A stretch of 64,000 nucleotides of DNA from Lysobacteraceae bacterium NML91-0213 (GTDB lineage: Bacteria > Pseudomonadota > Gammaproteobacteria > Xanthomonadales > Xanthomonadaceae), in assembly GCA_002798175.1 (NCBI GenBank), contig NWQL01000004.1, positions 362,636 through 426,635 on the forward strand, read 5' to 3'. Below, in pieces: positions 20,466 through 35,536 of this stretch. A model generated the notes under the pieces. The model had not been told where the DNA came from and did no database searches. It saw nothing but the letters and a program-made list of their open reading frames with translations. The translations under genes and the position numbers were made by a program. Each line of letters starts with the position of its first letter. Position 1 is the first letter of the stretch.

Positions 20466-20596
20466 GCCAGAGGGGGTTCTTCTCCCGATTGGGGGTTGAA
20501 TCCAGGCGGGGAGGCTTGCCTGAGGCCCGCAGGACCGGAAGAAGGAAGACCGGAGCCAAGCCGGAGCCGGAGCACGGGTCGGGTAGGGCGTCGGCG

Positions 20597-21011
20597 GCCC
20601 GCCGCGGCCACAGGGGGATGCCCAGCCGGATATCTCCGCGTCCTGCTCCCACATCCGGCCGCCGGCCATCCATGGCCGGCTCTGGACATCCCCCTGCATC
20701 CGCGGCGGGCCCCGAACCGTCGTGGCGCCCGGAGGAAATCAACGGCGAGTAACGGCAGGCCGTGGTGGCGGTCGACGACTTGCGGTTGCCACCGCCGTTG
20801 ACCTCCATGCCGGAACCATGAACGCACGAGCGTGTCAGCTGCAGGCGCCGGCACACCTTCGTTGATTTTCGTACCGGAGCCGGCGAATGCCCGGGCCCAT
20901 CGCGTGCACCGGGGGGTGTGCGGAAAGCCGGCCATGGATGGCCGGCGGCCGGCCGTGGTAGCCGGACGCGGACTCCGGCCGGGGGAGCACACCCCCGGTG
21001 TGCGCGACGGG
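20597..21011. repeat. Composite inverted repeat element, copy 2
   Basis: Unit A (20597-20710) and unit B (20896-21011) face each other across a 185-base spacer; total 415 bases, exactly the length of copy 3. Unit A is nearly identical to 161-273. The spacer matches the reverse complement of the copy 3 spacer in blocks (TAACGGCAGGCCGT, GGTCGACGACTT, CGAATGCCCGGG). Similarity to copy 3 extends outwards: upstream to about 20489 (TGGGGGTT and GAGCCGGAGCACGGG) and downstream to about 21117 (GGAGAAG ... CCCCGTGTG). The element fills the gap between the convergent hypothetical gene and icd (20466-21232); I see no gene there. Confidence 0.9.
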
Positions 21012-21184
21012 CGGCGCGATGCCAGGCGAAGCCCCCAACCGGCGCCCGGGGCACTCCGATTCTTGCTTCACAGCCGCCGCATGGAGAAGAGCGAGACAAG
21101 GCCCCGTGTGCACGATGGCTGCGCGCCGCCGCACGAAGGCATGTCAGCCGCCCGACACCCCCCGGATCCGGTCGCGGAACCAGA

Positions 21185-30677: not shown

Positions 30678-30869
30678 CTGGTTCTTCTTCCAACTCCACG
30701 GAGATGTCGTACGGCTGAAATGGCCCGGTGCGCGCGTGCTTCATTGCGTGCTGGACCGTCCGTCATGCGCACACGGGGCGTGTTGTCCTTCCGTCTTCTC
30801 CACGCAGCGGTGGTGGCGCAAAGCACGGATGTCGGGTGTCGGTGAGGTGCCTCGTTTGGCGTCGCGCCG

Positions 30870-31284
30870 CCCGTCGCGCGCACCGGGGGGGGTGCTCCCC
30901 CGGCCTGAGTCCGCGTCCAGCTACCACGGCCGGCCGCCGGCCATCCATGGCCGGCTGGGAGCACACCCCCCGGTGCACGCGACGGGCCCGGGCATTCGTC
31001 GGCTTCGGCACGCAAAGCAATAGCGGTTGCTGCCCGCGTCGCCTGCCACCGACCACGGCCCGGCGTTCGCAGTTCCTGTGGACGTCAGCGGTGGCGCAGC
31101 CGAAGTCGTCGACCCCACGACGGCCTGCCGTTATTCGCCTTTGAGTCTTTCCGCCCAGACGACGTCCGGGGCCCGTCGTGGACGCAGGGGGATGTCCAGA
31201 GCCGGCCATGGACGGCCGGCGGCCGGATGTGGGAGCAGGACGCGGAGATATCCGGCTGGGCATTCCCCTGTGGCCGCGGCGGGC
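30870..31284. repeat. Composite inverted repeat element, copy 3 (reverse orientation)
   Basis: Unit B (30870-30986) and unit A (31171-31284) in the opposite order and orientation to copies 1 and 2; total 415 bases with a 184-base spacer. Terminal repeats of unit B are CCCGTCGCGCGCACC... and its complement ending CGCGACGGG. Extended similarity to copy 2 runs from about 30765 to about 31380. The rest of the 30618-31502 gap holds the dehydrogenase terminator and, at 31400-31502, GC-rich sequence without a recognisable gene. The flanking genes are convergent. Confidence 0.9.
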
Positions 31285-34874: not shown

Positions 34875-35536
34875 GCGTCCACGGAAGAAGGCCGAAGCGC
34901 GGCAAGCAGTGCTTCGACGGGTTGGAAACGGAAGTCGAGTTCGGCCAGCAGCACCTGCCGGGCGTCCTCGCGGAACGGAACATGCCAGCGGTCACCGTTG
35001 CCATCGGCCGCGTGATGCAGGCGTTCGCAATGCGCGGCCAGCAGGGCGGGCACCGGGCCCAGCAGCGCGTGCTCGCGCGGGCTCAGCACGCCTTCGAGCA
35101 CCGCATCGACTGCCGCCAGGCGTGCATGGCCGGGCGATTGCCGGGACAGCCGATCGCGCACCTGCCCGCGCAGCCGCCCGGTGGCCGCCTGCATCGCGCG
35201 TTGCAGCGACTGGCAGTGGCGCAGCACCGCGGCCGCGGCTGCATCCCGGCCGGCGTCCGCGGCCGGCCAGCCACGGTCGGCCGCGATGGCGTCGGCAAGG
35301 TCCGCACGCGCGCGTGCGCATTCCCCGGTATCGATGCCCGTGCCGGCGTCCTCGTCCATCGCGACGGGACCATCGAGTGCGCGCGACAGTGCCACCGCGC
35401 GCGGCCAGTCCAGCCAGTCACCCAGCCGCGCCGTCGGCGCCGGCACGGCCGGCATCGGCGGCGCCCCCGCGATCCGCGCCAGCAGGCGGGGCAGGGTCGA
35501 GGCTGGAACCGTTGCCCGGAGCGGGGCGTCCTGCAT
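34871..35536 (-). CDS. DUF3348-family protein
   Basis: A 221-residue soluble protein, first gene of the cluster. The Ala/Arg-rich helical sequence contains ARIAGAP, a central LRHCQSLQRAMQAATGRLRGQ and a C-terminal FREDARQVLLAELDFRFQPVEALLAAL segment that I associate with DUF3348. The start is the ATG at 35536; a TTG four codons upstream is possible. Coupled by ATGA to the DUF802 gene. Divergent from the aldolase gene, so the promoter lies in 35537-35668. Confidence 0.78.
   Translation of the reverse strand: MQDAPLRATVPASTLPRLLARIAGAPPMPAVPAPTARLGDWLDWPRAVALSRALDGPVAMDEDAGTGIDTGECARARADLADAIAADRGWPAADAGRDAAAAAVLRHCQSLQRAMQAATGRLRGQVRDRLSRQSPGHARLAAVDAVLEGVLSPREHALLGPVPALLAAHCERLHHAADGNGDRWHVPFREDARQVLLAELDFRFQPVEALLAALRPSSVDA

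Follow-up and report, generated by a model that had tools for sequence, protein, structure and literature searches.

A dispersed repeat of back-to-back, candidate CsrA/RsmA-binding RNA modules in Luteimonas-group genomes

Three times in the 64,000-nucleotide stretch of Lysobacteraceae bacterium NML91-0213 analyzed here (the window), two large hairpin-forming units stand in opposite orientation around a spacer. What kind of element is this composite? An earlier note had seen in it the plan of a REPIN, an inverted REP doublet mobilized by a RAYT transposase, and had missed what looks like, on one strand of each unit, a CsrA/RsmA-binding RNA related to TwoAYGGAY. By the tests made, the element is not a REPIN; judged by its sequence, it is related to TwoAYGGAY but scores too low for Rfam membership. 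We put at roughly 0.6 the probability that it represents a family of twin RNA modules, divergently arranged, that bind CsrA/RsmA, probably as decoys, and spread as a dispersed repeat. The proposition that these are mobile, multicopy, back-to-back decoy RNAs, of which each new locus adds regulator-sequestering sites, is more tentative and falls just short of an even chance.

The pair would consist of divergent RNA modules, A read leftwards and B rightwards, with a common spacer. Each module would fold into a long, varying but paired closing stem, a GGA hairpin of the AUGGAU type and another hairpin with a long loop that would offer two or more further GGA sites. Such a module would be the Lysobacteraceae variant of a TwoAYGGAY-kind RNA; its likely job would be CsrA/RsmA binding, and its dozens of copies would form a dispersed decoy, or sponge. 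The pair would spread as a repeat, with new copies settling between genes, behind coding regions; no RAYT in the same genome would be needed for this. What the sequences themselves show is the copy number, the A-B arrangement, the covariation, the strand asymmetry, the conservation of GGA, relatives at the Rfam level and one presence/absence difference that is most simply taken as a gain. Transcription, CsrA/RsmA binding, the sponge function and a mobilizing enzyme are the parts of this scheme that we infer.

Copies in the window and in related genomes

The three composite copies lie at 161-502, 20597-21013 and 30868-31284, within two bases of where they had originally been placed. In copy 2, unit A (20597-20712, minus strand) is a three-way junction with a CANGGANG loop at 20667-20674 on the minus strand. 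A spacer (20713-20895), poorly conserved except at the ends adjoining A and B, separates it from unit B (20896-21013, plus strand), which has a long closing stem, a CATGGATG hairpin at 20933-20940 and a long loop containing GGACGCGGA, and is followed by a semiconserved tail of about 34 nt (21014-21047, plus strand). Copy 1 comprises unit A at 161-276, whose RNA-like (GGA) strand is the minus strand (CANGGANG hairpin loop at 231-238), and unit B at 386-502, whose RNA-like strand is the plus strand (CATGGATG loop at 422-429); it measures only about 342 bp, owing to a shorter spacer. Copy 3 has unit B at 30868-30986 (minus strand, with a CANGGANG loop at 30942-30949 on that strand), a spacer at 30987-31168 and unit A at 31169-31284 (RNA-like strand plus, CATGGACG loop at 31207-31214). 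A short B-like match at 35245-35284 is a possible remnant.

In copy 2, unit A matches its counterparts in copies 1 and 3 at 97% and 96% identity, for unit B the identity is 92% in both comparisons, and copies 2 and 3, which are oppositely oriented, align over 612 positions with 80% identity. The unit ends are conserved, as GCCCGCCGCGG/CCGCGGCGGGC in A and CCCGTCGCG/CGCGACGGGC in B. Since unit A and the reverse complement of unit B share about 76% identity, the composite is a single unit type present twice, back to back, and A and B are not two unrelated units.

The host genome (G000, 3.24 Mb in 15 contigs, Luteimonas group) gave 120 BLAST matches, and the matches of a covariance model trained on 30 units number 64 there, 77 in G021 and 56 in G051; in a few cases, the two strands of one unit were both counted. 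Mapped per locus, with one duplicate entry removed, the elements number 37, 39 and 28 in these genomes, 104 in total, which bears out the high copy number predicted from the window; modules exceed 60 each in two of the three mapped genomes. Doublets predominate over singlets: 85 of the 104 elements are complete A-B pairs (27 in G000, 34 in G021 and 24 in G051), the partial copies numbering 10, 5 and 4, respectively. The possibility raised by the earlier note that only the three window copies exist is contradicted by the host genome itself. In every complete pair, A is followed by B on the same strand, which is the sole arrangement accepted by the script behind the pair counts, and the locus maps show no other.

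Additional units adjoin some pairs (A-B-B at L119, B-B-A at L140), truncated A units occur in L102, L127 and L133, and L025 holds two lone A units about 1 kb apart, around an AT-rich 1-kb stretch. By eye, a truncated unit A at L025:1-500 adjoins an IS3-like orfA frame, apparently belonging to an insertion sequence that lies within the unit or next to it. In L035, L037 and L160, copies are deleted between the shared hairpins; these are short hybrids that fuse the A hairpin with the B hairpin and look like recombinants at the common GCCGGCCAT core.

Strong window-like pairs were found in 8 of 52 genus genomes (G000, G004, G008, G015, G021, G022, G040 and G051) in a survey that scored 12 candidates in each genome. 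The plasmid and phage collections gave no match to the element, nor did an exact scan for the B loop in the named genomes, a set from which records close to the window may be missing. Contigs C1, C3, C5 and C12 of G008 have an end inside the repeat, which may thus be a point where draft assemblies are interrupted.

In keeping with the earlier note, which saw no transposase encoded inside the element, 104 of 105 entries are overlapped by no gene called with a simple composition-based caller; four long spacers were judged by eye. By flanking genes, the 105 entries divide into 41 convergent, 60 co-directional, 2 divergent and 2 undetermined, against 16 convergent, 96 co-directional and 71 divergent among the other gaps of more than 100 bp in the same stretches, counts in which overlapping stretches recur and one element is entered twice. 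Terminator-like hairpins within 250 nt are aimed at the element on 55 of 170 sides (7 in one shuffle per side) and outward on 10 of 170 (0 in the shuffles). Since they point at the elements, read-through may be limited, which counts against the decoy reading. The spacer ends, considered as a possible promoter site, show weak conservation.

Folding, GGA loops and strand asymmetry

Each unit of about 115 nt has a long closing stem and two hairpins, with folding z scores of -8.3 for unit A and -5.9 for unit B; equally good folds appeared in 0 of 200 dinucleotide shuffles in both cases. The CANGGANG hairpin is present in 80 of 81 B units and in 75 of 76 A units. On the GGA strand its loop reads CAUGGAUG, in which the GGA letters are changed in 1 of 471 cells, against 18 of 314 for the two N positions. 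The second hairpin loop contains GGA-Y-GCGGA or a near variant in 80 of the 81 B units and in 71 of the 76 A units. Counted over 45 distinct units from other genomes, GGA occurs 72 times in the unpaired junctions against a single TCC (24:0 in the 5' junction, 48:1 in the 3' junction), and the linker shows no bias (GGA 12 versus TCC 14). C-ANGGAN-G hairpins of at least 5 bp occur 120 times inside A/B units and 3 times outside them in 424 kb of G021 and G051, made up of stretches picked around elements; a hairpin at L329 holds ACAAGGATGT.

RUACARGGAUGU is the CsrA SELEX consensus, and the ANGGAN hexaloop is the form found in the RsmE complex (PMC7652899). In sequence and predicted fold, the units combine GGA in ANGGAN loops with several GGAs per RNA, as would suit a decoy, and csrA (PF02599) is present in all eight genomes with A/B pairs. 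Against the decoy reading, the unit stems exceed the stability of most CsrA SELEX hairpins (PMC7652899), and a transcript spanning the whole pair would carry the other unit in antisense.

The closing stem was analyzed for covariation in 64 of 82 distinct B units, with the structure taken from one of the sequences. Over its 26 bp, 98.0% of cells are paired, and 12 of the 26 pairs show two-sided changes. For the whole B structure, 0 of 500 shuffles, which ignore relatedness, matched any of five measures; when the structure was slid by 2 or 3 columns, 6 to 7 pairs with two-sided changes remained. On the GGA strand, mismatches in the B closing stem are G.T in 123 cells versus A.C in 12 (56 versus 12 without one mostly-G.T pair), and by pair position 15 lean toward G.T versus 2. 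The A closing stem, on the A-to-B strand, gives the mirror image, with A.C in 76 cells versus G.T in 7. In the A units, 65 of the 76 cells sit in three pair positions, without which the count is 11 to 7, and in the two A hairpins the bias is reversed (9 to 22); this concentration on three positions slightly lowers the odds for the decoy-RNA reading.

In 47 distinct helices from other genomes the counts are 59 versus 8, with the bias in the direction seen for B; taken per helix, they are 32 versus 1 with 14 ties (P = 1e-10 by cells and 8e-9 by helices, relatedness ignored). These helices were found with a pattern that imposes the hairpins and not the stem, and the stem search scored both mismatch types equally. 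For the strand and junction counts, identical helices were counted once, and matches with a closing-stem score below 12 (65 of 113, from Methylomicrobium, Desulfosporosinus, L. cucumeris and some other Luteimonas and Lysobacter) were left out.

The mismatch bias, with G.U kept and A.C avoided, points to selection acting on a single strand. A two-stranded cruciform would not give such a bias; RNA would, and single-stranded DNA might. Against the decoy reading, an excess of G.T over A.C could also arise from single-stranded DNA or from strand-biased deamination. Strand-biased wobble pairs may offer a general means of telling RNA elements apart from DNA palindromes in bacterial repeats.

Comparison with TwoAYGGAY and with regulator-binding RNAs

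TwoAYGGAY (RF01731, clan CL00106) was named as a probable RNA in 2010 (PMC2864571) and proposed to be a CsrA-binding RNA in 2014 (PMC4333381). Like the units described here, it has a poorly conserved closing stem and two adjacent same-strand hairpins, and a closing stem that varies but remains paired is found in the B units. Both TwoAYGGAY hairpins have A-Y-GGA-Y loops, whereas the window units have one AUGGAU hairpin and a second, long loop with GGACGCGGA; both AYGGAY loops occur in the units of relatives. Unlike TwoAYGGAY, the window-type units stand in pairs, back to back, and each genome has tens of such sites. The window units gave no RF01731 match at the Rfam threshold of 43 bits, and neither did the genomes G000, G021, G051 and G015 under stricter filters.

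Sequences that do exceed the threshold come from Marinobacter (52.8 bits, full length), Pseudomonas BGr12 (49.0 bits, two-hairpin core only, without the closing stem), Lysobacter lactosilyticus (50.1 and 49.2 bits) and L. padinae (47.3 bits), the positive sources being 2 of 11 in one set (Marinobacter and Pseudomonas) and 3 of 18 in another. Five of the 52 genus genomes pass the cut-off, and four of those are among the eight with strong A/B pairs. At locus L301 of L. granuli, a window-B-type unit (85%) lies beside a two-AUGGAU unit; by the look of its two units, this locus is a bridge between the window-type and TwoAYGGAY forms.

A scan of genome contigs for two such hairpins 14-24 nt apart returned at least 119 stretches, at least 6 of them without a usable match. 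Among the 113 usable matches, 48 have a closing-stem score of at least 12, against 1 of 113 with shuffled flanks (20 shuffles each); those with stems belong to Luteimonas, Lysobacter, Pseudoxanthomonas, a Lysobacteraceae, Marinobacter and three proteobacterial metagenome-assembled genomes. Two or more units were detected at 24 of the 149 loci examined: 15 have the window polarity at 57-305 bp (several of these being the same genome fetched twice), 1 has the opposite polarity, 7 are same-direction and 1 has its units about 4 kb apart. The wide pair L312 is a methanotroph locus, whose genes are unreadable by the GC-based caller. Three Lysobacteraceae loci (L181, L189 and L196) show a second repeat class with CATGGATG hairpins and GGA-containing linkers, arranged in L181 and L196 in tandem arrays with a period of about 117-120 nt.

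The sponge RNAs CsrB, RsmX, RsmY and RsmZ are the products of a few dedicated genes, in contrast to the tens of dispersed pairs found here; like the units, each of these RNAs carries several GGAs, both in hairpins and single-stranded. The CsrB repeats are described in PMC7652899. Among 40 genus genomes, RsmZ and RsmY were each over the Rfam cut-off in none, and below it in 2 and 19, respectively, the latter including G000 at 25 bits. By its description, RsmU of Xanthomonas campestris resembles the modules in coming from the same bacterial family and in being an RsmA-binding RNA from downstream of a gene; it differs in being a single locus, processed from the comEA 3'-UTR, for which no Rfam homologue is reported (PMC7694677). 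Replacement of its GGAs left RsmA binding and effect unabolished (PMC7694677). Since RsmU binds RsmA without them, GGA is no proof of binding.

If the decoy reading is true, more than 60 modules per genome would be enough to make RsmA titration a trait of genome architecture, and a repeat element would have been shaped as a dispersed regulator sink, in bacteria without an RsmY/RsmZ-type sponge at the Rfam cut-off. In the literature surveyed, TwoAYGGAY RNAs are predicted CsrA binders with no demonstrated role reported, and RsmU is the sole RsmA-sequestering RNA that we met for Xanthomonas-family bacteria; a family with tens of such pairs in each chromosome would be relevant to both matters. Within a limited library judged on titles and abstract openings, we found no description of dispersed paired TwoAYGGAY modules.

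Mobility and competing explanations

REPINs, BIMEs and the TIR dimers of TIRtrons resemble the element in being inverted palindrome pairs that are intergenic, noncoding and multicopy (PMC3733652), and the element differs from them in its ~115-nt unit with a GGA-loop RNA signature and in that no matching tyrosine transposase was found. As a REPIN mobilized by a RAYT of its own genome, it is contradicted on several counts and we consider this very improbable, even though the inverted intergenic doublets sit mostly in convergent and co-directional gaps, like REPs (PMC3733652), and G000 itself has three Y1_Tnp matches. The units measure about 115 nt instead of 20-40 nt with a tag, and by eye no GTAG or CGTC tag was seen at their ends. 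Y1_Tnp has no match in G021, G015 (89% complete by estimate) or G004, all of which carry pairs, and 20 Y1 regions (covering 23 of 56 Y1_Tnp matches) contain no A/B match, no exact CCATCCATGG hairpin and no autonomous relative of the element. The transposase gene flanked by A or B that the earlier note had thought worth seeking did not appear in these regions. A RAYT that works from outside the genome, or one that has disappeared in the meantime, may still have been involved.

A nonautonomous DNA transposon, MITE-like or akin to the TIR dimers of TIRtrons, is unlikely, if far from negligible. Here A and B would be the left and right ends, recognized as single-stranded DNA hairpins by an HUH/Y1 or other transposase, and the RNA-like features would be by-products. 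Such a transposon would account for the A-B heterodimer arrangement, for the absence of copy 3 from five relatives and for the inversion of 11 of 45 orthologous pairs (see below), and TIRtrons with self-complementary TIRs, as well as TIR dimers, are known, including in S. maltophilia (PMC3733652). It also finds an echo in L341, L342, L343 and L346 (G008, G022, G040 and G046), where Y1 genes of RAYT/TIRYT-like type are flanked by long inverted repeats, of which those inspected self-fold and those of G008 and G022 contain CTGTAGGAGCAGCTA; these repeats are TIRtron-like, but have no A/B match. Three pair-carrying genomes without Y1_Tnp, the lack of any target duplication or secure ends seen, and the conservation of GGA in loops and junctions together with the Rfam TwoAYGGAY matches, which a transposon does not predict, all speak against it. 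A bidirectional transcription insulator or stabilizer of mRNA 3' ends, with no specific protein partner, is improbable: it would fit the placement of entries in 41 convergent and 2 divergent gaps, but gene terminators already precede many copies, and it would have no need for near-invariant GGA loops, junction GGAs or a strand bias.

No target-site duplication was seen at the elements, and the candidate terminal repeats are doubtful. GGTTCTTC, at 7 of 8 letters, lies within 150 nt left of A in 24 of 85 copies, in 11 of them 40-43 nt outside and in 13 elsewhere, and GAAGAACC lies within 150 nt right of B in 20 of 85 copies; the distances scatter for both. In the window, GGTTCTTC occurs 8 times against 0.46 expected, partly in terminators, and three of the eight occurrences (15847, 36430 and 41377) are far from any element, so that its copy at 20475-20482 (plus strand) is a doubtful left end of copy 2. 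The motif right of copy 2 was discarded as a right end; it is also present in the pair-free G021 site, within a terminator. GGTTCTTC is possibly a terminator-associated motif of the genus.

Empty sites in relatives, one of the checks suggested at the outset, were found for copy 3, which is present in G021 and absent from all five other relatives in which both flanks lie together. In G051, 28 bp separate the matched blocks, against about 826 in the window. In G008, G022, G040 and G048, both flanking genes are present with matched blocks 602-665 bp apart, no CATCCATG or CATGGATG was found at the site, and the unit matches are weak and chance-like (best E value, 9e-4); G015 and G004 yielded one flank each. 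By parsimony without a tree, the likeliest account of copy 3 is a gain on the lineage leading to G000 and G021; two gains are the alternative, because the G021 copy is inverted relative to that of the window. The site of copy 2 is less clean, since G021 and G051, in which the pair is missing, differ there in other sequence too; by eye, a gene resembling a LysR regulator lies at the G051 site.

Across the three mapped genomes, after removal of one duplicate locus and of pairs whose flank hits were discordant in strand, 45 orthologous pairs were compared, of which 34 have the same orientation and 11 are flipped with respect to the genes on either side. Arm similarity is about equal in orthologues and nonorthologues (for A, 0.957 and 0.942 versus 0.948), and the spacers are hardly informative for orthology, so that locus history is nearly nil. 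At three element loci (L169/L113, L015/L099 and L025/L100), the flanks are 97-99% identical between G000 and G021, other flanks being about 78-95% identical, which suggests recent exchange between these two genomes.
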